Shown: piece after piece, positions 6,104 through 16,104 of the stretch
Layout: every line of letters begins with the position of its first letter
Position numbering within the stretch: position 1 is the first letter of the stretch
Assembly (NCBI GenBank): GCA_903884185.1
Contig: CAISDV010000113.1
Coordinates: 1 to 46,522 of the forward strand
Length of the DNA: 46,522 bases
Direction: 5' to 3'
Source of the DNA: an uncultured Chitinophagaceae bacterium
Lineage (GTDB): Bacteria; Bacteroidota; Bacteroidia; Chitinophagales; Chitinophagaceae
The notes under the pieces: generated by a model
What the model was told of the DNA's origin: nothing
Seen by the model: only the letters and a program-made list of their open reading frames with translations
The model's database searches: none
Translations under genes and position numbers: made by a program

Positions 6104-7552
6104 TTATAGTTCACTCGCCAACACCACCGCCTTCTTCAACGCATTGAGTTTATTATTCACTTCCTGGAGTTCACTTTCCGGATTACTTGCCGCAACAATG
6201 CCTGCGCCCGCTTGATAAACCAGTTCATTATTTCTACTGAGGAAGGTGCGTATCATAATAGCGTGGTTACAACTTCCATCAAATCCCATAAACCCTAAAG
6301 CACCGCCATAGTAACTGCGCGAAGTGGGTTCATACTTATCAATCAATTCCATTGCTTTGAACTTGGGCGCGCCACTTAATGTACCTGCCGGGAAAGTCTT
6401 TGCCAGTAATGCAAATGGATTGGTGCCTTCTTTTACTTTACCTGTCACTTCACTCACCAGGTGTATTACATGCGAATAAAATTGCACCTGCCTGTACTGA
6501 CTAACAGTTACTTCATCGCATAATTGGCTAAGATCGTTTCGTGCCAGATCAACCAACATCACATGCTCTGCATTTTCCTTTGCATCTTTTAATAATCTTT
6601 CAGCTGCGGCATGATCCACATCATCATCACCTGTGCGTTTAAATGTTCCTGCAATGGGATGCACAATGGCTTTTCCATTTTGAACGATCAACTGACTTTC
6701 AGGCGAGGATCCCATCAACTTATAATCACCATAATCAAAAAAGAATAAGTAGGGAGAAGGGTTCACGCTACGGAGTGCCCTATACACATTAAATTCATCA
6801 CCCGTAAATCCCTGTTGAAACCTTCTGCTCAAAACGATCTGGAAAACATCACCGCGGTAGCAACTCTGAATTCCCTTCTTCACCATTTCTATATAATTGG
6901 CATCCGTCATATTGGATGTCTCGTCACCTTTTGGTTTGAAAGGAAAAATAGGAACGTCCTTACTTTTTATCAATCCCTCAACAATACCCAGTTCACTTTC
7001 TACCTCATTCATCACATTCTCACAAATAAATAATTCGTCTTTAAAATGATTGATCGCGATAACGTATTGATAAAGACGGTAACGCATGAGGGGGATGTCG
7101 GGATGCGAGATTCGGGATGCGGGATGCGGGATGCGAGATTCGGGATGCGAGGATTTCAATGATATAGTATCAAAAAATTGTACCGCATCAAAACTGGCGT
7201 AGCCAAACAATCCCTGCGCATGTTTGGCAGTTTTTTCTTCTACTTTATTTACTTCAAAGGTTTGCATGAAATTCCAGAGAAGGGCGGGCACTTCACTCTT
7301 GTTTTTAAGTGGCACTCGTTCAGGTTTTCCACCGGGAAATTTGAATTCAATGCTTTCGGTAGAGCTGATCTCGATACCCGCAATGGCATTGATACATATA
7401 AATGAATAGCTGTTTTCGGCTACATGATGGTCAGTGCTTTCGAGGAGTATCGTATCACGGAACCTGTCGCGCACACGCAGGTAGATACCAACAGGCGTAT
7501 AAATATCCGCCAGCATCTTCTTTACTTTTGTTTCAATATGGATCTTCTTCAT
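6104..7552 (-). CDS. trpE: TrpE, anthranilate synthase component I (carries an in-frame repeat insertion)
   Basis: TrpE converts chorismate to anthranilate using ammonia from TrpG. The 482-aa protein has the tryptophan feedback motif LLEST near residue 36, then AGTFKRTGDD, VDLARNDL, AGTLSGAPKFKAMELID and YYGGALGFMG of the chorismate-binding domain. Residues about 134-151 are an odd Ser/His/Pro/Arg-rich stretch (HPESRIPHPASRISHP) placed between DAVQFFDTI and DIPLMRYRLYQ. The DNA encoding it is a copy of a genomic repeat also present elsewhere in the window. It is the first structural gene after the trpL attenuator and is the regulated entry step of the pathway. Confidence 0.97.
   Translation of the reverse strand: MKKIHIETKVKKMLADIYTPVGIYLRVRDRFRDTILLESTDHHVAENSYSFICINAIAGIEISSTESIEFKFPGGKPERVPLKNKSEVPALLWNFMQTFEVNKVEEKTAKHAQGLFGYASFDAVQFFDTISLKSSHPESRIPHPASRISHPDIPLMRYRLYQYVIAINHFKDELFICENVMNEVESELGIVEGLIKSKDVPIFPFKPKGDETSNMTDANYIEMVKKGIQSCYRGDVFQIVLSRRFQQGFTGDEFNVYRALRSVNPSPYLFFFDYGDYKLMGSSPESQLIVQNGKAIVHPIAGTFKRTGDDDVDHAAAERLLKDAKENAEHVMLVDLARNDLSQLCDEVTVSQYRQVQFYSHVIHLVSEVTGKVKEGTNPFALLAKTFPAGTLSGAPKFKAMELIDKYEPTSRSYYGGALGFMGFDGSCNHAIMIRTFLSRNNELVYQAGAGIVAASNPESELQEVNNKLNALKKAVVLASEL
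7092..7153. repeat. GGGATGCGAGAT-type repeat embedded in trpE
   Basis: The plus strand carries tandem GGGATGCG(A/G) units with variants GGGATGCGAGATTC. The same unit types occur in the non-coding arrays at 28525-28607 and 30016-30114. Here they lie wholly inside trpE and add about 18 codons without disturbing the frame (codons about 134-151, 7100-7153). Confidence 0.8.
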
Positions 7553-7592
7553 GTTTGTTATCGTTTAGCTTCCAGCTTCGGTTTTGGCAAAT

Positions 7593-7618
7593 AAAAACCC
7601 CGACAGGTTGTGTCGGGG
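7593..7618 (-). terminator. trp attenuator terminator hairpin
   Basis: On the minus strand the 8-bp stem CCCCGACA/TGTCGGGG (7611-7618 with 7598-7605) encloses a 5-nt loop and is followed by five U residues (7597-7593). It lies between the leader peptide and trpE, 41 nt before the trpE start. It is a standard intrinsic terminator, and its position marks it as an attenuator rather than the end of an operon. Confidence 0.88.
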
Positions 7619-7665
7619 CTTGAATATTATTCAATAAGTACTGGCCATGCCACTACAATCCCCGA
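7613..7665 (-). promoter_or_regulatory. trp antiterminator pairing
   Basis: The last codons of the leader peptide contain TCGGGGATTG (7665-7656). It can pair with CAAGCCCCGA (7622-7613), which includes the 5' arm of the terminator. The pairing is 9 bp with one A-G mismatch. A ribosome stalled on the Trp codons (7688-7680) leaves this segment free, while one that reaches the stop codon covers it. This is the alternative structure expected of translation-coupled attenuation. Confidence 0.78.
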
Positions 7666-7712
7666 TCAAGGTTTGTATGCCACCACCAATATTTGTTTGT
7701 AATTTGTTTCAT
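7653..7712 (-). CDS. trpL: TrpL, tryptophan leader peptide (19 aa)
   Basis: A 19-codon reading frame encodes MKQITNKYWWWHTNLDRGL, with three consecutive TGG codons at positions 9-11, and stops at TAG. It lies about 100 nt upstream of trpE and is followed by a terminator hairpin and a competing pairing. The peptide itself probably has no function; translation of its Trp run senses charged tRNA-Trp. No Shine-Dalgarno sequence is visible, and the ATG lies only 9 nt from the predicted -7 promoter box. Recognition rests on codon content plus structure, not on a database match. Confidence 0.9.
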   Translation of the reverse strand: MKQITNKYWWWHTNLDRGL

Positions 7713-7721
7713 GTTGTAATA

Positions 7722-7753
7722 CAAATTTGCAGGAGAATGTGTTCGTAACCAAA
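7722..7753 (-). promoter_or_regulatory. Predicted trp promoter (Bacteroidota type)
   Basis: On the minus strand TTTG (7753-7750) is followed after 20 nt by CAAATTTG (7729-7722), one mismatch from the Bacteroidota -7 consensus TAnnTTTG. The predicted transcription start lies about 6 nt before the trpL ATG. The layout matches the his promoter at 15760-15791 exactly. Confidence 0.65.
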
Positions 7754-7821
7754 TTTTTTTTACATTTTACCCGGAATATTGTGGCCTGACAGCCTAATTT
7801 CAACTCAATAAGAAACTTCTT

Positions 7822-9093
7822 ATGAAAAAAATATACCTGTTTTCCATCCTTCTTGCTGCCTGTTATCTCGCCAGCGCGCAATCAGGCGATACCACTTATA
7901 TATTAAGGCCCGACCGCGTTTTTGACGGAGAATCCATGCATACTGGATGGGTAGTGGCTGTAAAAGGCGATAAGATCGTTAGTGTTGGAAATGCAGACCA
8001 GGTAAAACCCGGCGGCCCATCACGATCCATAGAATTAAAGGGCACTACAATATTACCCGGTTTTATAGAAGGGCATTCACATCTTTTTCTTCATCCTTAT
8101 AATGAAACAAAATGGGATGAACAGGTATTGAATGAATCAAGGGCTGAGAGAACCGCAAGGGCAGTAGTGCATGCGCGAAATACTTTGCTTGCAGGTTTTA
8201 CTACTGTGCGTGATCTTGGAACTGAAGGAGCGGCGTACGATGATGTGGGGCTAAAACACGCAATAGAAAAAGGTATCATCCCCGGGCCAAGAATGATCGT
8301 TGCCACAAGGGCGATCGTTGCTACAGGAAGTTATGGGCCTAAGTTAAAAAACACAGACGATATCATTATCAAAGGCGCTGCCGAAGCAGATGGTGTTGAT
8401 GCATTGACAACAGAAGCACGCACACAAATTGGTAATGGCGCTGATGTGATAAAAGTGTATGCCGATTATCGCTGGGGATTGAATAAAACAGCGCAACCCA
8501 CTTTTACTTTGGATGAATTAAAAGCATTGGTAGCTGTTGCCGGAAGTAGTGGCAGAAAAGTAGTGGCCCATTCTTCTACTGTTGAAGGCATGAGGCGATC
8601 CATACTTGCGGGAATTGCAACCATTGAACACGGAGATGATGGCAATGAAGAAATATTTGACCTGATGGTAAAATATAAAACAGCGCTTTGCCCTACGATC
8701 TCTGCAGGTATTGCCGTGAGCGAATACGACGGATGGGTGCACGGCAGTTTGCCAGAGCCTGAACGCATCACAAAAAAGAAAAAGAGTTTTGCACTTGCCT
8801 TGCAAAAAGGAGTGACCATTTGTTTTGGAGGAGATGTGGGAGTATACGCACATGGCGATAATGCCAGGGAAATGGAAAACATGGTGGCTTATGGCATGAA
8901 ACCGATTGATGTATTGCGATCTGCTACTTCTATAAATGCGGATGTGTTTGGTTATGGTGATATGATAGGGAGGATTAAAGCAGGGTTATTTGCTGATTTG
9001 GTTGCTGTGGAAGGGAATCCTTCAGACAATATCAGCAATGTGCGGAAATTAATGTTAGTGATGAAAGATGGACATATCTATCTAAGCAAATAG
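7822..9093 (+). CDS. Secreted metal-dependent amidohydrolase (imidazolonepropionase/prolidase-like)
   Basis: This 423-aa protein has a signal peptide (about residues 1-19, ending in ASAQ) and the amidohydrolase metal-site pattern. EGHSHLF carries the HxH pair, and a later lysine in DVIKVYADY is the likely carboxylated Lys. Further ligands are AHSSTVEG and TIEHGDD (His) and FGGDVGVYAHGD (Asp). The family hydrolyses C-N bonds in cyclic amides, dipeptides or similar compounds, and the substrate cannot be read from sequence. Export suggests it acts in the periplasm. It lies on the opposite strand between hisB and the trp leader, diverging from trp and converging on hisB, and so interrupts the his/trp block. 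A role in those pathways is not indicated. Confidence 0.85.
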   Translation: MKKIYLFSILLAACYLASAQSGDTTYILRPDRVFDGESMHTGWVVAVKGDKIVSVGNADQVKPGGPSRSIELKGTTILPGFIEGHSHLFLHPYNETKWDEQVLNESRAERTARAVVHARNTLLAGFTTVRDLGTEGAAYDDVGLKHAIEKGIIPGPRMIVATRAIVATGSYGPKLKNTDDIIIKGAAEADGVDALTTEARTQIGNGADVIKVYADYRWGLNKTAQPTFTLDELKALVAVAGSSGRKVVAHSSTVEGMRRSILAGIATIEHGDDGNEEIFDLMVKYKTALCPTISAGIAVSEYDGWVHGSLPEPERITKKKKSFALALQKGVTICFGGDVGVYAHGDNAREMENMVAYGMKPIDVLRSATSINADVFGYGDMIGRIKAGLFADLVAVEGNPSDNISNVRKLMLVMKDGHIYLSK

Positions 9094-9135
9094 GACTAGG
9101 ATTCGTAGGATTTAAAGATTGCAGGATTACTTAAT

Positions 9136-10266
9136 CTACAATATACCTTTAGTGCTTGGAAGGTAATTGCTCAATGGATCTCTCTTCACTGCCATTCGTA
9201 TTGCTTTGGCAAATGCTTTAAAGATGGCTTCTATTTTATGGTGCTCATTATCACCCTTGCATTCAATATTCAAATTACATTTTGCGGCATCACTGAATGA
9301 TTTAAAGAAATGAAAGAACATTTCTGTTGGCATCTCTCCTATTTTTTCTCTTTTAAATTCAGCATTCCATACCAGCCAATTACGCCCGCCAAAATCAACC
9401 AGCACTTTGGCCTCAGCCTCATCCATCGGTAATGCAAATCCGTAGCGCTCCATTCCGCGCTTGTCGGCGAGTGCTTTGGCAAATGTTTCACCCAAAGCGA
9501 TACCAGTATCTTCAATCGTGTGGTGTTCATCAATATGCAGGTCGCCTGTGGTTTCAATTAATAGGTCCATCTTCCCGTGGCGTGCTATCTGCTCCAGCAT
9601 GTGATCAAAGAACCCAAGCCCGGTATGAATAGAAGCCTGGCCACTCCCATCTAAATTCAACTCTACTTTTATTTTTGTTTCATTTGTATTTCTTTCCACT
9701 ACCACTTTTCTCAAACCCATTTTAAGAAAAGTATAAATATCATTCCAATTGCTTGTTTCAAATGCGATGGTGCTTCTTAATTCTTTTTCCTTGTCTGCAG
9801 TCAGTTCATGCAGATCGTTTTTTAAGTAGATGGCTTTGCACCCCAGGTTTTTTGCGAGTTGAATATCAGACCAGCGATCACCAATCACAAATGAATTGGA
9901 GAGATCAAATTTTTCTGTATTCAAATAATGTGTAAGCATGCCTGTTCCAGGCTTACGGGTAGCTTTGTTATCTGCGGGAAGGCTTTTATCAATACATATT
10001 TCATCAAATACAAATCCTTCGCCTTTGAGTGTGCGGAGCATTAAATCCTGGTAAGGAGTGAAATTTTTTTCGGGATAAGAAGCTGTGCCAAGCCCATCCT
10101 GGTTGGTTACCATTACTTTTCGGTAATCAAATTCAGCGGCAATCTTTGACAAAGTGCTGATAGCACCTGACACAAATGAAGTTTTCTCCAGGCTATCTAC
10201 CTGGTAAGTGCCTGGAGGTTCCTGCAAGATCACTCCATCACGGTCTATGAATAAGATTCTTTGCAT
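9136..10266 (-). CDS. hisB: HisB, bifunctional histidinol-phosphatase / imidazoleglycerol-phosphate dehydratase
   Basis: This 376-aa fusion has an N-terminal HAD-type phosphatase (FIDRDGVI with Asp8 and Asp10; VTNQDG; the KPGTGM segment; IGDRWSDI) over about residues 1-165. A C-terminal IGP dehydratase follows from about residue 170, with its two His-rich metal motifs FFDHML and [10 protein letters not shown]. It catalyses the dehydration of IGP and the dephosphorylation of histidinol phosphate. It starts 2 nt after the cytochrome c gene, so it is translated from the same transcript. It ends the early his cluster and faces the amidohydrolase gene. Confidence 0.97.
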
Positions 10267-10268
10267 GG

Positions 10269-10736
10269 TTATTTTTTCTTCTTTCCTGCATTCCTCACTG
10301 CAGCCACTTCCGAAGGCAGCACCGCAGAAGCTTTGTTCTTCCAGCTATTTCTTACATATGTGAGTGCATCAGCAATTTGCTGATCGGTTAATTCAGGATG
10401 CGGTGCCATCACATTATTATATATCTCATTTTCGATCTCAACACCTTTCATTCCTTTCAATACAATATTGATCAGTTTTGCTTTGTCGTTTGCAATCACC
10501 GCTTTTGCACCGGCCAATGGAGCATTCATCATGGTAACTCCGCTCCCGTTCGCCTGGTGACAAGCGAGGCATTGTTTCAGGTAAACATCCTGGCCACGGA
10601 TGATAGAAACTCTGATCCCTGTTGCAGGAGCCGTGGTATTTGTAACAGGCTTTGCCGGTACTTGTTTTTTAGGTGCAGTTTGAAAACTTAGAATAGCCGT
10701 TATCAATACAATAGTGCCAATCAATTTCTTCATCAA
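10269..10736 (-). CDS. Exported single-heme cytochrome c
   Basis: This 155-aa protein has an N-terminal hydrophobic export signal ([14 protein letters not shown]), a Pro/Thr/Ala-rich linker and one heme-attachment site CLACH in [14 protein letters not shown]. Downstream Met residues in GMKG and [10 protein letters not shown] could supply the axial ligand. The fold suits a small periplasmic c-type electron carrier. It lies 5 nt after the dehydrogenase gene and 2 nt before hisB, so it is co-transcribed with both. Its likely partner is the neighbouring dehydrogenase, from which it would accept electrons. Its place inside a his operon is unusual. Confidence 0.85.
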
Positions 10737-10741
10737 TATGT

Positions 10742-12004
10742 TTATTTGCCGTTATAAATAATACGATAGAGGGTTCCTTTTGCATCGTCTGATACATATA
10801 AAGAACCATCAGGCCCCTGCGCCAAACCACATGGACGGTGTTGTGCGTCGTTAGGATTTTTTACTTCAGTCAAACCGGAAAAGCCATTCGCGAACACTTC
10901 CCAGTCGCCTGAAGGTTTGCCGCCTTTAAAAGGAACAAACACAACATAATACCCTTCCTGTGGCAAAGGCGCCCTGTTCCATGATCCATGGAAAGCAATG
11001 AATGCACCATTCTTATATTTTGCAGGGAACATATTACCTGAATAAAATAATAAACCATCCGGTGCAAGATGTCCAGGGAAAGCAACTGTTGGATTGATCG
11101 CATCAGCACCACCTTCTTTTTTTCCATCGCCACCATATTCAGGCGCTAATATTTTTTTGTGCTGGATCTGATCGTAGAAAATATATGGCCAGCCTGCGTT
11201 ATCACCTTTCTTAATTTCATACATACATTCTGCAGGTAATTCGGCGCTTTGTTTTTCATTAAAGAATTCTGGCCAGTTCTGAAACAACTGGTCCCTTCCA
11301 TGCTGCATGACAAATAAAGAATTGGTTTGCTGGTTCCAATCAAATCCCACTACATTTCTCAATCCAGTTGCATAACGTATACCATCGGCCTGGGTTTGAT
11401 TCAGTTTATCAGGGCTGTACTGCCAGATACCTGCTGCATCATTTAAAACCGGGCAAGGCATTTTACCTTTAGAGCCTGCTGTCCTGTCCTGCTCCTGGCA
11501 GGAATTGGAATAAGCGCCCTGGTTCACATAAATATGGTTATCGTTATCCAGTATAAGCGACTTTGAAGGATGCTGCCCTGTTCCTAAACCCGTGATTATT
11601 TTATCCGGTGCATCGGGGTTGATCACTTCATTCTTATCATTCAGTTTATAACGAAATACTTCTGTATTGGAAGATGCATACAAGTAGCCATTTTTGATGG
11701 TGATACCAGTGCCACCGTAATTACCAAAGCCGGTTATGACATCTGCTTTACCGTTTCCTTTACTGTCGTGTAACCGAAGGACACCCTTGCCATTTACTGC
11801 ACGGTCCAACTTTATATAAACATCGCCCTGCGTTGTAACAACAATATGTCGTGCCCTGCCCAGGTTTTCAGCTACTTTCAATGCACCGAAACCAGCGGGT
11901 AATTTTAAACCTGCATTGTCGGCATCAGGTGCCGGTTTGCCCTGCGCAGATGCAGAGAAAGTAAACGCCATCATACCAAAAAAATAGAAAAGAATTTTTT
12001 TCAT
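10742..12004 (-). CDS. Exported PQQ-type sugar dehydrogenase (sorbosone dehydrogenase family)
   Basis: This 420-aa protein has a signal peptide (to about residue 20, SASAQ) and a beta-propeller of the glucose/sorbosone dehydrogenase family. The repeats include GFGNYGGTGITIKNGYLYA, ATGLRNVVGFDW, MQHGRDQLFQNWPEF, GDNAGWPY, FHGSWNR, HRPCGLAQGPDGSLYVSDD and a C-terminal YRI strand. The family oxidises aldoses or similar compounds with PQQ in the periplasm and passes electrons to cytochrome c, and a cytochrome gene follows directly. It sits between hisC and hisB. The true substrate is unknown, and PQQ use is inferred from the family. Confidence 0.82.
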   Translation of the reverse strand: MKKILFYFFGMMAFTFSASAQGKPAPDADNAGLKLPAGFGALKVAENLGRARHIVVTTQGDVYIKLDRAVNGKGVLRLHDSKGNGKADVITGFGNYGGTGITIKNGYLYASSNTEVFRYKLNDKNEVINPDAPDKIITGLGTGQHPSKSLILDNDNHIYVNQGAYSNSCQEQDRTAGSKGKMPCPVLNDAAGIWQYSPDKLNQTQADGIRYATGLRNVVGFDWNQQTNSLFVMQHGRDQLFQNWPEFFNEKQSAELPAECMYEIKKGDNAGWPYIFYDQIQHKKILAPEYGGDGKKEGGADAINPTVAFPGHLAPDGLLFYSGNMFPAKYKNGAFIAFHGSWNRAPLPQEGYYVVFVPFKGGKPSGDWEVFANGFSGLTEVKNPNDAQHRPCGLAQGPDGSLYVSDDAKGTLYRIIYNGK

Positions 12005-12052
12005 GTTTTATTTTTTAGAGGCTTAAAGATACTTATTTCAGCAAGCGCACAA

Positions 12053-13114
12053 TTAAGATGTTTGATCTTTTATATGATCGGCCCAAACATCCACCAGGGC
12101 TGTGTTTTCCTGCTCTGTGCCAACGGTGATGCGCAGGCAACCTTCGCAGAGTTGCACATTGCTACGATCACGCACCACGATCCCGTTTGCTAACAAGTGT
12201 TCGTATATGCCGCGCGGATCAGCCACTTTCACCAAAAGAAAATTGGCATCGGATGGATACACTTTCTCCACACCCGGAATTTTCTGCAACACTTCTGCCA
12301 ATGCTTCGCGCATGGCAACCAGTTCTTTGATCATCTCATTTACCTGTCCGGTTTCTTCCAGTGCTTTCAACGCCAGGTCCTGTGTTGCCTGGTTAATATT
12401 ATAAGGTGGTTTTACTTTATTGAGTACCGTAATAATTTCTTCCGAAGCAAATGCCATACCCAAACGCAATGCTGCGAGTCCCCATGCTTTGCTGAATGTT
12501 TGCAGGATCACAAGGTTGGGATAATCTGCCAGTTCGGGAATAAATGAACGTTGCCTTGCGAAATTGATATATGCTTCATCGATCACTACCAGTCCATTGA
12601 AATTATTGAGGACAGATTCAATATCGCTCCGCTGCATAGAATTTCCCGTGGGGTTATTGGGCGAACAGATCCAAATGATCTTTGTATTGGCATCAGCGAG
12701 TTTTTCAAGATGGATCAGGTCCAATTGAAAATTATCCAGCAAGGGTGCTTTACGAATTTCAACATTATTAATATTGGCGCTCACTTCATACATGCCATAA
12801 GTAGGTGGACAAATAATGACATTGTCTTCTTTGGGTTCGCAAAAACAGCGGAATAAAAGATCAATACATTCATCACTACCATTACCAAGGAAAATATTTT
12901 CCTGTGGGATATTTTTTACCTGGCTGATAGCGGCTTTCAATGTGCGTTGGTATGGATCGGGGTAACGGTTATACCATTTGGTGAGTGGTGAACCAAGGCT
13001 GTTCTCATTGGCATCGAGGAATACTTTTGCTTCTCCACTGAATTCATCGCGCGCGGAGGAGTAAGGCTTGAGGGCCTTGATATTTTCTCTGATTAATTTT
13101 TGAAGATCAAACAT
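12053..13114 (-). CDS. hisC: HisC, histidinol-phosphate aminotransferase
   Basis: HisC transaminates imidazole-acetol phosphate to histidinol phosphate using glutamate. The 353-aa fold-type I PLP enzyme has GNGSDECIDLL, ICSPNNPTGN, VVIDEAYINFA and the PLP-lysine motif TFSKAWGLAALRLG (Lys209), with a C-terminal CLRITVGT containing the substrate-binding Arg. It is the third his gene, separated from hisD by about 100 nt filled with a repeat and followed by the dehydrogenase gene after 48 nt. Confidence 0.96.
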   Translation of the reverse strand: MFDLQKLIRENIKALKPYSSARDEFSGEAKVFLDANENSLGSPLTKWYNRYPDPYQRTLKAAISQVKNIPQENIFLGNGSDECIDLLFRCFCEPKEDNVIICPPTYGMYEVSANINNVEIRKAPLLDNFQLDLIHLEKLADANTKIIWICSPNNPTGNSMQRSDIESVLNNFNGLVVIDEAYINFARQRSFIPELADYPNLVILQTFSKAWGLAALRLGMAFASEEIITVLNKVKPPYNINQATQDLALKALEETGQVNEMIKELVAMREALAEVLQKIPGVEKVYPSDANFLLVKVADPRGIYEHLLANGIVVRDRSNVQLCEGCLRITVGTEQENTALVDVWADHIKDQTS

Positions 13115-13131
13115 GTTTTATTTTTTACCGG

Positions 13132-13212
13132 GGAGGCAGGGATCCCGAAGTTTCGGGAGGTGAGTTCCGCAGAGATTTCTCCCCGACCCTCCCCGACTCT
13201 CCGTCTCTGCGG
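13132..13212. repeat. Structured GC-rich repeat between hisD and hisC
   Basis: It contains a short hairpin CCCGAA/TTCGGG (13144-13157) and a longer inverted pair CCGCAGAGA (13167-13175) with TCTCTGCGG (13204-13212). The right arm ends directly against the hisD stop codon at 13213. The arms resemble those at 15828-15930, so this is a dispersed intergenic element. Confidence 0.75.
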
Positions 13213-14496
13213 TTAATCTTTCTTCAATCTTATTGATACAGCATTTTTATGCGCTTCTAATCCTTCTGCTTCAGCCATTAATTCAACTGTCTTACCAATA
13301 TTCTCCAATCCCTCCCGTGTTAATTTCTGAAAAGTAATTTTTTTTACGAAACTATCAACACTTACACCGCTATATGCTTTTGCAAAACCATTAGTGGGCA
13401 AAGTGTGATTGGTGCCGCTTGCATAATCACCCACGCTTTCGGGAGAATAATTTCCTAGAAAGATAGAACCGGCATTGATGATCTTTTCTGCGATGGCTTC
13501 ATCATTAGTGCAGGAAATGATCAGGTGCTCCGGGGCATATTCGTTAACCAGATCAATGGCTTCATTTATATTTTTTAAGATGACGGCTTTGCTGTGTTTC
13601 AAAGCTTTTTCAGCTATTGCTTTTCTTGGTAATTGTGCCAGTTGTTTTTCTATTTCGATTTCTACTTGCGTTACAATTGATTCTTCTGTACAAACCAATA
13701 GCACCTGGCTGTCGGCTCCGTGTTCTGCCTGTGATAAAAGATCGGCAGCAATAAAAGAAGCATCAGCAGTTTCATCTGCTAGCACACATACTTCACTAGG
13801 CCCTGCGGGCATATCAATGGCGACACCTTCCTGCTGTATCAATTGTTTGGCGCAGGTAACATATTGATTACCGGGCCCGAATATTTTATAGGCTTTGGGA
13901 ACAGTTACTGTTCCATATGCCATTGCAGCAATGGCTTGGACACCGCCTATCTTAAATATTTTAGTGATACCCACTAATTGTGCAGCAAATAATATGGCAG
14001 GGTGCAGCTTTCCGTCTTTGTTTGGTGGGGAACAAAGAATTACTTCTTTACAACCTGCGATCTTTGCGGGAATACCCAGCATCAATACCGTTGAAAATAA
14101 TGGGGCACTGCCGCCGGGAATATACAATCCTACTTTTTCAATGCCCACGCTTTTGCGCCAGCATTTTACTCCGGGCATGGTTTCAATGATCTCGGGTTGT
14201 TGCAATTGTTTTTTATGGAATGATTGGATATTGGCAGCTGCTAATTCAATGGCTTGTTTTAGTTGGGGCGAGATGGATGCTGTTGCTTCGTTTATTTCTT
14301 TTTCGTTTACAATAAAATTTTCAAGGGCTACTCCATCAAATTGTGAGGTGTATTTTTTAATAGCTGAATCGCCGTTTTGCTTCACATCATTCAGCACAGC
14401 TTCCACTGTTTCCTGTAATGAGGATATATCATAAGTTGGCCTTTGGAGGATTTCCGACCATTGGTTGCGTGAGGGGTATTTAACTTGTTGCATCAT
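13213..14496 (-). CDS. hisD: HisD, histidinol dehydrogenase
   Basis: HisD oxidises histidinol to histidine in two NAD-dependent steps using a bound zinc. The 427-aa length is normal. Motifs are GLYIPGGSAPLFSTVLM, the GPGNQYVTCAKQL nucleotide segment, MPAGPSEVCVLAD, SQAEHGADSQ (zinc/catalytic His), NEYAPEHLI and DYASGTNHTLPT. It is the second structural his gene. The 238-nt gap before it, after hisG, contains a large folded repeat that might separate expression of hisG from the rest. Confidence 0.97.
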   Translation of the reverse strand: MMQQVKYPSRNQWSEILQRPTYDISSLQETVEAVLNDVKQNGDSAIKKYTSQFDGVALENFIVNEKEINEATASISPQLKQAIELAAANIQSFHKKQLQQPEIIETMPGVKCWRKSVGIEKVGLYIPGGSAPLFSTVLMLGIPAKIAGCKEVILCSPPNKDGKLHPAILFAAQLVGITKIFKIGGVQAIAAMAYGTVTVPKAYKIFGPGNQYVTCAKQLIQQEGVAIDMPAGPSEVCVLADETADASFIAADLLSQAEHGADSQVLLVCTEESIVTQVEIEIEKQLAQLPRKAIAEKALKHSKAVILKNINEAIDLVNEYAPEHLIISCTNDEAIAEKIINAGSIFLGNYSPESVGDYASGTNHTLPTNGFAKAYSGVSVDSFVKKITFQKLTREGLENIGKTVELMAEAEGLEAHKNAVSIRLKKD

Positions 14497-14576
14497 TATT
14501 TTTCAAATTGTCAAACCCTGCTTTACATGCTACACCCATATTGTAAAATCTTTTCCCTCGGGCCGGGTGGCCTTCA

Positions 14577-14683
14577 CATTCCCGACGCCGCTGCTTTTTG
14601 TTCTTTGGAAAAATATCCGCAAGCGGATTTTTCCAATCCCGACTTTGTCGGGACCGCACAAAAAGAGGCGGCTTACGGGAATG
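14577..14683. repeat. 107-nt nested inverted-repeat element between hisG and hisD
   Basis: The ends CATTCCCGACGCCGC... and ...GCGGCTTACGGGAATG are imperfect inverted repeats about 30 nt long. Inside are two clean hairpins: GGAAAAATATCCGC/GCGGATTTTTCC (14607-14634) and TCCCGACTTTGTCGGGA (14637-14653). Nested symmetry of this sort is typical of REP/BIME-type mobile repeats or MITE-like elements. No coding sequence is visible in it. Confidence 0.78.
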
Positions 14684-14734
14684 CTGGTAGCAGGTGCGAG
14701 TATTAGGCATCTGTCTAACATATTTTACTCACGG

Positions 14735-15613
14735 TTAAATTATCATTTTTTCTATCGGCACTACTAAAATCCCTTGCGCCCCTGCCGCCTTCAATTGCTC
14801 AATAATATCCCAAAATTCGTTTTCACTCAATACACTGTGCACGCTGCTCCATCCTTCTTCTGCCAAAGGCAAAACGGTTGGGCTTTTCATGCCGGGCAAT
14901 AAACCAATGATCTCTGTTAATTTATTGTTGGGTGCATTTAATAAAATGTATTTATTGTTCTTTGCTTTTTTTACTGCCTGTATTCGGAATAACAATTTAC
15001 TCAGCAATTGTTCCTGTACTGCGCCGAGGTTGTTGTTTTTGATGAGGACAGCTTGCGACTGCAAGATGGTCTCGGTTTCTTTTAACCCATTCATGAACAA
15101 AGTGGAACCGCTACTCACCAGGTCGCAGATAGCATCTGCAAGCCCGATACCCGGGGCTATTTCAACACTCCCACTGATCTCATGTATCTCAGCATTGACC
15201 TTATTTTCTTTCAGGAATTTATCAAGCAATACCGGGTAGCTGGTAGCGATCTTTTTGCCTGAGAGAAAAGAAGCATCCTTATATTCCTCATTCTTTCTCA
15301 CAGCAAGTGAAAGACGGCATTTCCCAAATCCCAGGTTCTCTACCACTTCCACTTTCTTTTTTTTCTCATATACTACATTCTCGCCTACAAAGCCGATATC
15401 GGCAACCGAATCCTCTACATATTGCGGTATATCATCATCACGCAGAAAATACACTTCCAAAGGGAAATTGGATGCATCTGCTTTTAGTTTGTTTACGCCT
15501 GTGCCCAGCTCAATACCACATTCCTTTAGCAGGCGAACCGAATCATCAAAGAGACGGCCGCTTTTCTGTATGGCGAGTTTGAGTTTTGGACCTGTTATTT
15601 CACTGTTTTTCAT
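14735..15613 (-). CDS. hisG: HisG, ATP phosphoribosyltransferase (long form)
   Basis: HisG joins PRPP to ATP in the first, regulated step of histidine synthesis. The 292-aa length fits the long form, with a C-terminal ACT-like regulatory domain (from about residue 220, GMKSPTVLPLAEEGW). It therefore needs no HisZ, and histidine feedback inhibition is expected. Motifs include LKLAIQKSGRL, DIGFVGENVVYE and the PRPP loop SGSVEIAPGIGLADAICDLVSSG, which is cut by one or two substitutions. It is the first structural gene after the hisL attenuator. Confidence 0.96.
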   Translation of the reverse strand: MKNSEITGPKLKLAIQKSGRLFDDSVRLLKECGIELGTGVNKLKADASNFPLEVYFLRDDDIPQYVEDSVADIGFVGENVVYEKKKKVEVVENLGFGKCRLSLAVRKNEEYKDASFLSGKKIATSYPVLLDKFLKENKVNAEIHEISGSVEIAPGIGLADAICDLVSSGSTLFMNGLKETETILQSQAVLIKNNNLGAVQEQLLSKLLFRIQAVKKAKNNKYILLNAPNNKLTEIIGLLPGMKSPTVLPLAEEGWSSVHSVLSENEFWDIIEQLKAAGAQGILVVPIEKMII

Positions 15614-15637
15614 GTTCCTGTTTTTATGGCATACCCG

Positions 15638-15669
15638 AAAAAATAAGGGCCTACTTTTCAGTAAGCCCT
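15638..15669 (-). terminator. his attenuator terminator hairpin
   Basis: On the minus strand AGGGCTTACT (15669-15660) pairs with AGTAGGCCCT (15655-15646). The 10-bp stem contains one U-G pair and a GAAA loop, and TATTTTTT follows. It lies between the His-rich leader peptide and hisG, about 24 nt before the hisG ATG. Confidence 0.88.
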
Positions 15670-15706
15670 CAATGTTTTATAAAATAACACAAACACCGCA
15701 GCCTAC
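15661..15706 (-). promoter_or_regulatory. his antiterminator pairing
   Basis: GTAGGC (15706-15701), which overlaps the leader stop codon, can pair with GCTTAC (15666-15661) in the 5' arm of the terminator. Wobble pairs extend this to about 8 bp. The segment copies the start of the terminator's 3' arm (AGTAGGC), the usual sign of mutually exclusive structures. It is shorter and weaker than the trp equivalent. Confidence 0.62.
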
Positions 15707-15750
15707 CCGATGGGCAAGAAATGATGGTGGATATGTGTGTTAATCTTCAT
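15703..15750 (-). CDS. hisL: HisL, histidine leader peptide (15 aa)
   Basis: A 15-codon frame encodes MKINTHIHHHFLPIG, with four His codons among five consecutive positions (6-10), and ends at TAG. It starts 137 nt upstream of hisG and is followed by an intrinsic terminator and a competing pairing. Shortage of charged tRNA-His should stall the ribosome on the His run and favour read-through into hisG. No Shine-Dalgarno sequence is visible, and the ATG is 9 nt from a perfect -7 box. Identification is by codon content and structure. Confidence 0.9.
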   Translation of the reverse strand: MKINTHIHHHFLPIG

Positions 15751-15759
15751 AATGAGGCA

Positions 15760-15791
15760 CAAAAATAGTGTGCTGTGGGGGAATGGGCAAA
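15760..15791 (-). promoter_or_regulatory. Predicted his promoter (Bacteroidota type)
   Basis: On the minus strand TTTG (15791-15788) is followed after 20 nt by TATTTTTG (15767-15760), a perfect match to the Bacteroidota -7 box TAnnTTTG. The predicted start lies about 6 nt before the hisL ATG. Confidence 0.75.
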
Positions 15792-15827
15792 TTTATATTC
15801 TTGGAGTCTGGAAATGTTTTAAAAGAA

Positions 15828-15930
15828 TTACCGCAGAGCCGCAGAGACAGAGAGAAACGCAGAGAGGAAGTCCTACTGAATATAACTCTGCGAAACTCCC
15901 TGTCTCTCCTCCCGAAGTTTCGAGATCCCC
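15828..15930. repeat. CGCAGAG-type intergenic repeat
   Basis: The left part has repeated CCGCAGAG/CAGAGA units, and the right part has complementary CTCTGCG and CTGTCTCTCC units followed by a CCCGAAGTTTCG hairpin. It is a dispersed element related to the one at 13132-13212. It lies between the his promoter and the ankyrin gene; no gene is seen between 15792 and 16151. Confidence 0.7.
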
Positions 15931-16042: not shown

Positions 16043-16104
16043 GCAAAGGAGCAAAGGCACTCCGCCAAAAAACTTTGCGCCTTATTTTTTCTTGGCGTCT
16101 TTGC
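16043..16104. repeat. GCAAAGG/CTTTGC inverted intergenic repeat
   Basis: GCAAAGGAGCAAAGG-type sequence on the left is matched by CTTGGCGTCTTTGC on the right, giving an imperfect long hairpin of the same general kind as at 360-437 and 24296-24381. It ends about 47 nt before the chosen start of the ankyrin gene. Confidence 0.6.

Follow-up and report, generated by a model that had tools for sequence, protein, structure and literature searches.

What controls hisG, the first of the histidine biosynthesis genes encoded on a contig from an uncultured member of the Chitinophagaceae, is the question raised by the 46,522-nucleotide stretch of DNA analysed here (the window). A preliminary description, made from the letters alone, placed an attenuator with a His-rich leader peptide upstream of hisG, matched it with a similar arrangement at the trp genes, and proposed that both amino acid blocks are controlled by ribosome stalling rather than by a repressor. 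Our analysis leads us to regard the hisG leader as, very probably, a ribosome-mediated transcription attenuator of the E. coli his type which would sense charged tRNA-His. A repressor may act in addition to the attenuator.

Anatomy of the hisG leader region

The elements upstream of hisG, in the order in which they would be transcribed, are as follows.

15791-15760, minus strand: Bacteroidota-type promoter, an exact match to TTTG-N20-TATTTTTG
15791-15788, minus strand: -33 TTTG of the promoter, with a 20-nt spacer to the -7 box
15767-15760, minus strand: -7 box TATTTTTG; the predicted RNA start is at about 15755
15750-15703, minus strand: leader peptide ORF, MKINTHIHHHFLPIG and stop, with His at codons 6, 8, 9 and 10
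15743-15684, minus strand: predicted segment 1:2 protector hairpin, from RNAalifold, minimum free energy (MFE) folding and pair counts
15707-15700, minus strand: segment 2, GGUAGGCU, containing the UAG that is the leader stop codon
15696-15691, minus strand: inner part of segment 2, GUGUUU
15677-15660, minus strand: whole of segment 3, predicted partner of either segment 2 (antiterminator) or segment 4 (terminator)
15677-15672 and 15667-15660, minus strand: the two parts of segment 3, AAACAU and GGCUUACU
15669-15638, minus strand: intrinsic terminator, a 10-bp stem with a GAAA loop and a U tail
15613-14735, minus strand: hisG (TIGR00070, 189.9 bits), the first gene of the presumed regulated set

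Read directly from the minus strand, the 15-codon frame with its HIHHH motif (ATG AAG ATT AAC ACA CAT ATC CAC CAT CAT TTC TTG CCC ATC GGG TAG) stands where the preliminary description had placed it, as do the promoter and the terminator with its U tail. The terminator stem is AGGGCUUACU-GAAA-AGUAGGCCCU (10 bp, 15669-15646), its tail is UAUUUUUU (15645-15638), and its 3' arm, AGUAGGCCCU, constitutes segment 4. The competing pairing of GTAGGC (15706-15701) with GCTTAC (15666-15661) is also present and can be extended to 8 pairs. In the protector, CACA, CACC and CCC of the His-codon region pair with UGUG, GGUG and GGG further downstream. The leader RNA has a folding z-score of -5.06, which none of 200 shuffles equalled.

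Between hisG and the divergent ankyrin-repeat ORF that begins the other side of the region, at 16092, there are 478 nt. The ORF list holds no minus-strand ORF of at least 100 aa between hisG and 18783, so the terminator is unlikely to be part of an upstream gene. The exact promoter pattern occurs twice in the window against 2.24 expected and is not rarer than chance. Simulated windows average 0.3 short His-rich ORFs (at least 4 His in 6 residues) and the real one has three, and the His run alone is therefore little proof. Since neither the promoter string nor the His-rich ORFs convince by themselves within the window, the case rests on comparison.

Conservation of the leader in relatives

The best 80 of 240 loci from a HisG genome scan were kept. 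They were labelled mostly Chitinophagaceae, Sediminibacterium, Flavihumibacter or Bacteroidetes, and the one labelled Beijerinckiaceae (L071) is probably a mislabelled bin. L027 and L030 were dropped when the hisG start was not found by the script, leaving 78 loci. A His-rich ORF precedes hisG in all 79 upstream regions (the window and 78 relatives), and the conservation of His codons that the preliminary description had named as a way of checking its reading was borne out. Under a strict rule (at least 4 His in 6 residues within 420 nt before hisG) the ORF is present in 73 of the 78 relatives, against a background of 2 in 401,938 nt of flanking DNA with both strands counted, and this conservation settles the reality of the leader. 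The typical peptide in these loci is MKxxxHIHHHHFLPxG. By script, an intrinsic terminator lies between the leader ORF and hisG in 76 of the 79 regions; in two of the three misses (L015 and L046) the sequence was clipped by the choice of hisG start, while in L018 the hairpin is present but its T run is interrupted.

A covariance model built from the leader (R1) was run on the window's own genome and on 195 genomes of the family. The own genome gave one strong match (E 9.4e-15) and a next best of 0.22. All six of these weaker matches (E 0.22 to 9.4) were rejected, as a leader was absent on visual inspection. Among the matches listed, 145 of the 195 family genomes have one, a figure that overstates the number of his leaders because its weak tail is mostly another switch, found before asd, and 126 of the 195 have one below E 1e-6. 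Sixteen of the 24 listed matches above 1e-6 were inspected: the gene downstream is asd for 13, an aminotransferase gene for 2 and hisG for 1. The downstream gene is hisG in G033, G091, G126, G150, G253 and G292, six of the 126 strong matches. Twenty of the 50 family genomes lacking an R1 match are listed, and of these 15 have no hisG and 5 have one; by eye, L270 and L271 carry a diverged His leader, L272 was unreadable by script, and L268 and L269 have no leader near hisG. Some locus sets overlap (L115 is L081; the asd loci L216 and L222 are L262 and L242), so that the counts in this study are not fully independent.

Alternative RNA structures

For an alignment of 76 leaders (A1), RNAalifold predicts the protector and the terminator together, and the antiterminator appears when segment 4 is omitted. 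Counts of pairs are biased towards the proposed structures, which were built on the very sequences counted, and by the relatedness of the loci. They gave 92.2% of 1879 cells paired for the protector with the terminator (35-48% for slid versions) and 89.5% of 1195 cells for the antiterminator (35-47% for slid versions). The predicted protector and terminator pairings covary within the family, with double changes in 13 of 25 pairs and a covariation that 0 of 500 shuffles, which ignore relatedness, reached. For the antiterminator the covariation score is 0.145 against 0.125 for shuffles (2 of 500 as high), a small excess; shuffles did as well in 30 of 500 for pair types and in 11 of 500 for pairs with a double change, and double changes occur in 17 of its cells, no more than in slid versions (6 to 37). 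The weakness of this covariation is explained by the outer helix, GGUARGC:GCUUACC, which is nearly invariant within the family.

When the leaders are folded without segment 4, segment 2 pairs with segment 3 in 75 of 76, and in 65 of the 76 the antiterminator has a lower energy than the terminator. For the window's own leader the energies are equal (-16.0 and -15.9 kcal/mol for antiterminator and terminator), and the choice of structure would therefore be a matter of timing.

Ribosome spacing and the stop codon

The leading edge of a ribosome reaches 12 nt past the start of the codon in its A site. With this general figure assumed, segment 2 is left free by every A-site His codon in 72 of the 79 leaders and by at least three such codons in all 79; it would be covered once a ribosome had reached the stop codon. 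Leaders in the family loci have 3-6 His codons, the last of which is 16 nt from segment 2 in 58 of 79, and in 71 of 79 the U of GGURRG is the first base of the stop codon. Reinitiation at hisG from the leader stop was considered and rejected, as the distance of 89 nt does not fit the peak of 11-14 bp that PMC4833913 gives for Bacteroidetes.

These features bear on the view that the terminator is weak and constitutive, with control exerted through a separate promoter or repressor and the leader only tuning the basal level. An additional repressor would be compatible with such an arrangement, but the conserved exclusive pairings and the His-codon spacing, which like the anatomy are taken from the sequence itself, would have no role in it, and we consider it very unlikely.

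Distribution in the Bacteroidota

Of 296 genomes drawn from the phylum, all at least 90% complete, 252 gave a HisG match. The sample taken from them comprised 60 upstream stretches and 30 further loci, with families labelled by f-numbers and f1 denoting that of the window. The script found a His-rich ORF in 43 of the 60 stretches (L148 is doubtful) and in 28 of the 30 loci (at least L097, L103 and L104 are doubtful); it found none in three stretches of f28, in two each of f17 and f47, and in one each of f13-f15, f18, f19, f25, f35 and f48. The segments were tested in 41 of the 60 stretches, L132, L148 and L155 of the 43 script positives being omitted and L156 being added by eye. By script, 30 of the 41 have an intrinsic terminator; the other 11 are L121, in which one is seen by eye, and four leaders of f3, two of f8 and four of f23.

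From one family to another, the predicted segments 2 and 3 mostly vary in step. Judged by eye, segment 2 is GGUARGC in f1; most leaders of f5 have CUCAAGCG and two of f8 have GUGGCAGG. In 30 leaders the energy of the segment 2:3 pairing was -10.4 kcal/mol with the leader's own segment 3 against -6.6 with segment 3 from other families, 12% of the foreign segments being as good, and L112, L114, L118, L156 and L164 did no better than about a third to a half of their swaps. A mutually exclusive antiterminator with co-changing arms was found by these comparisons, with modest covariation inside the family and some leaders failing the swap. We conclude that the predicted his attenuator is conserved across the Chitinophagaceae and, in other forms, across the phylum.

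The leader might alternatively act through its product, as a nascent-peptide sensor or a His-rich micropeptide (binding metal, for example), the peptide being under selection and the terminator incidental. The C-terminal LPxG is indeed well conserved within the family, but the conserved letters look like RNA: in 5 of the 79 leaders (L021, L022, L029, L048 and L065) the stop is displaced and GGURRG is nonetheless retained, and two of these five have it in a different reading phase. In other families the C-termini differ (for example SQAK, RGRF and GVGL) and their RNA pairs with its own segment 3. Trp and Lys/Thr versions of the leader also exist. A function of the peptide itself is extremely unlikely.

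Two further observations concern individual families. The f23 leaders (L168-L171, L083-L088, L093, L095, L098, L101 and L106) contain 7-12 His and often have a GTG start at the predicted first RNA base; by script, none of the four tested has an intrinsic terminator. In L122 (f2; 352-425 and following) the end of a tRNA-Phe gene directly adjoins the presumed his leader at its ATG, and the leader RNA may be released there by tRNA processing.

Promoter position and predicted RNA start

A -7 box, TAnnTTTG, lies no more than 60 nt from the leader start in 77 of the 79 f1 loci, the window included, and a -33 TTTG was found in 71 loci, in 68 of them at a distance of 18-21 nt upstream of the box. From the G of the box to the start codon the gap is 4 nt in 15 of the 77, 5-10 nt in 57 and at least 15 nt in 5. 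Because PMC9723704 places the box at -12 to -5 in Flavobacterium psychrophilum, a gap of 4 nt would make the AUG the first RNA base, and the gap of 9 nt in the window leaves a predicted 5 nt before the AUG. The leader mRNA is thus predicted to be leaderless or nearly so, its start being placed solely by the position of the promoter. Among the f23 leaders, 8 of 15 have a gap of 4 or 5 nt, several of them with GTG starts, and in f5 and f16, where the box was found, it is mostly longer (7 to 35 nt).

Leaderless mRNAs are put at 5.5% in F. psychrophilum by PMC9723704, and 5' UTRs shorter than 10 nt at about 3.7% in Bacteroides thetaiotaomicron by PMC7366714, which also mentions short ORFs resembling leader peptides. 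An attenuator leader that starts almost at the first RNA base and is spread through the phylum is little described.

Proposed mechanism

Rfam searches of the whole window at the gathering score returned one distant tRNA and nothing else, and a search of 7500-15850 at E values up to 10 returned nothing at the his leader, the His_leader and T-box models being unmatched. There is next to no chance that a T-box or another tRNA- or metabolite-binding RNA controls hisG with the ORF as a by-product: a T-box would likewise read histidine status via a terminator, but no Rfam model matches the leader and a T-box does not need the conserved His codons, frame and stop position that are all seen here.

The reading of the leader as a ribosome-mediated attenuator, as the preliminary description had it, draws its support from the conservation of the His codons and of the pairs, the way in which segments 2 and 3 vary in step from family to family, and the ribosome spacing. 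The RNA start, the loading of the ribosome and the response to histidine are inferred. RNA polymerase would start about 5 nt upstream of the leader AUG and a ribosome would load immediately. When charged tRNA-His is scarce, the ribosome would stall on the His codons with its leading edge short of segment 2, which would allow segment 2 (GGUAGGCU...GUGUUU) to pair with segment 3 (AAACAU...GGCUUACU); this would block the terminator and hisGDC...B would be transcribed. When tRNA-His is charged, the ribosome would reach the UAG inside segment 2 and cover it, segment 3 would pair with segment 4 (AGUAGGCCCU), and transcription would stop at the U tail. If the leader were not translated, the His-codon region would hold segment 2 as the protector and the terminator would form as well.

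Related leaders before trpE and asd

The parallel that had been drawn with trp holds. The window's trp leader, MKQITNKYWWWHTNLDRGL (7712-7653 and 7619-7591, minus strand), has a CGGGG/CCCCGA antiterminator and a terminator. A search at E 1e-60 found trpE in 13 of 29 relatives (own genome included), and all 13 trpE loci have a leader, with WWW in 12 and WW in 1. An Rfam motif, Bacteroid-trp, appears in a table of PMC2864571, and it has no match in the window at the Rfam gathering score nor in 7500-15850 at E up to 10.

The asd gene is preceded by a leader of the KHTKRxKK type with a GGAAGG/CCUUCC antiterminator and a terminator, found in the own genome at G000:C112 20915-21066 (L238) and at L208, L209, L211-L220, L222 and L239-L267. 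The own leader is MKQIKHTKRIKKPVSVWEGA, with the box 7 nt before the ATG. Thirty asd loci were taken and 29, the own one included, were left after L260 was dropped by the script; 24 of the 29 have a Lys/Thr motif leader, a composition that is biased because leaders were picked by that motif, and L240 and L263 are Lys-rich by eye. We regard this switch as a candidate lysine/threonine-codon attenuator. At L210 and L221 a Lys-rich leader with GGUAGGCC/GGCUUACC arms stands before an aspartate-aminotransferase-like gene. The names asd and aminotransferase rest on one 140-residue fragment each, which scored under the NCBIfam whole-protein cut-offs (191.8 of 223 bits and 67.4 of 550, respectively), and the remaining loci were matched to them by eye.

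Layout of the his genes

The other his genes of the window are distributed as follows.

14496-13213, minus strand: hisD (TIGR00069)
13114-12053, minus strand: hisC (TIGR01141)
12004-10269, minus strand: glucose/sorbosone dehydrogenase-like and cytochrome c genes, between hisC and hisB
10266-9136, minus strand: bifunctional hisB (PRK05446), behind two unrelated genes
1040-453, minus strand: hisH, starting 14 nt behind trpA
366-1, minus strand: start of hisA, after hisH, at the end of the window

The preliminary description had spoken of two amino acid blocks. A his and a trp leader are each present, but the his genes do not form one block, as hisH and hisA are found behind trpA. Because hisH starts so close behind trpA and hisA is next, both probably follow the trp attenuator and not the his attenuator. 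On the operon strand no TAnnTTTG box lies within trpA; there is one in trpD (4646-4639). The remainder of hisA is on contig C176, along with a hisA/hisF-like gene.

Comparison with known attenuators

The E. coli his leader has a longer run of His codons than the leaders of this family. According to PMC3766115 the E. coli and Salmonella attenuator is Rfam His_leader (RF00514), and with its mechanism as described in PMC9413887 it shares with the present leader the His codons before hisG and the logic of protector, antiterminator and terminator. The present leader differs in having no Rfam match, a stop codon inside segment 2, a Bacteroidota-type promoter and, by prediction, little or no 5' UTR. 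By its description in PMC9413887, the set of candidate his attenuators in Firmicutes is also similar, with 3-5 consecutive His codons and a terminator and antiterminator recognised by comparison in 17 genomes. The trpL of Sinorhizobium meliloti (PMC7298713) and the leuL of Streptomyces lividans (PMC8079986) likewise have a leader ORF at the first RNA base, in other phyla and for other amino acids; their RNA starts are reported, whereas the RNA start here is predicted.

Within the phylum, PMC9723704 reports a structured 5' element before hisG in F. psychrophilum, again with no Rfam hit, and suggests leader-peptide attenuation for amino acid operons, but its account of the element names it without a leader peptide, alternative pairings or a spread beyond the Flavobacteriaceae. 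This was the single report of a hisG 5' element in the phylum that our literature search returned, the coverage of which was thin for subscription titles, so an earlier description may exist. In introducing their survey of his genes in this superphylum, the authors of PMC8305728 refer to attenuation upstream of hisG. The switch is therefore of a known kind with a textbook mechanism, and a structured 5' element of hisG had already been reported in F. psychrophilum; in the literature searched, this kind of switch is scarcely described in the phylum. The fresher points are the predicted near-leaderless leader, the occurrence of the same design before trpE and asd, and the position of hisH and hisA behind the trp operon.

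Implications for the Chitinophagaceae

A his attenuator across the Chitinophagaceae, and with different arms in several other families, would mean that the principle is widespread and that it has been missed because no model covers these leaders. We lean slightly towards the view that the Chitinophagaceae possess a set of leaderless or near-leaderless attenuators of one design, with segment 2 at or near the stop codon and repeated as segment 4, serving his, trp and an asd with Lys/Thr codons, and that the design is old in the Bacteroidota. This would be contrary to the suggestion in PMC3766115, drawn from Rfam models only, that amino acid attenuators may originate in the gammaproteobacteria with few transfers. 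Such a switch would need the ribosome to be tightly coupled to RNA polymerase in a phylum that, as PMC9723704 states, does not rely on Shine-Dalgarno sequences to start translation, and a leader that begins near the first RNA base would make this coupling in the Bacteroidota testable with a small reporter.
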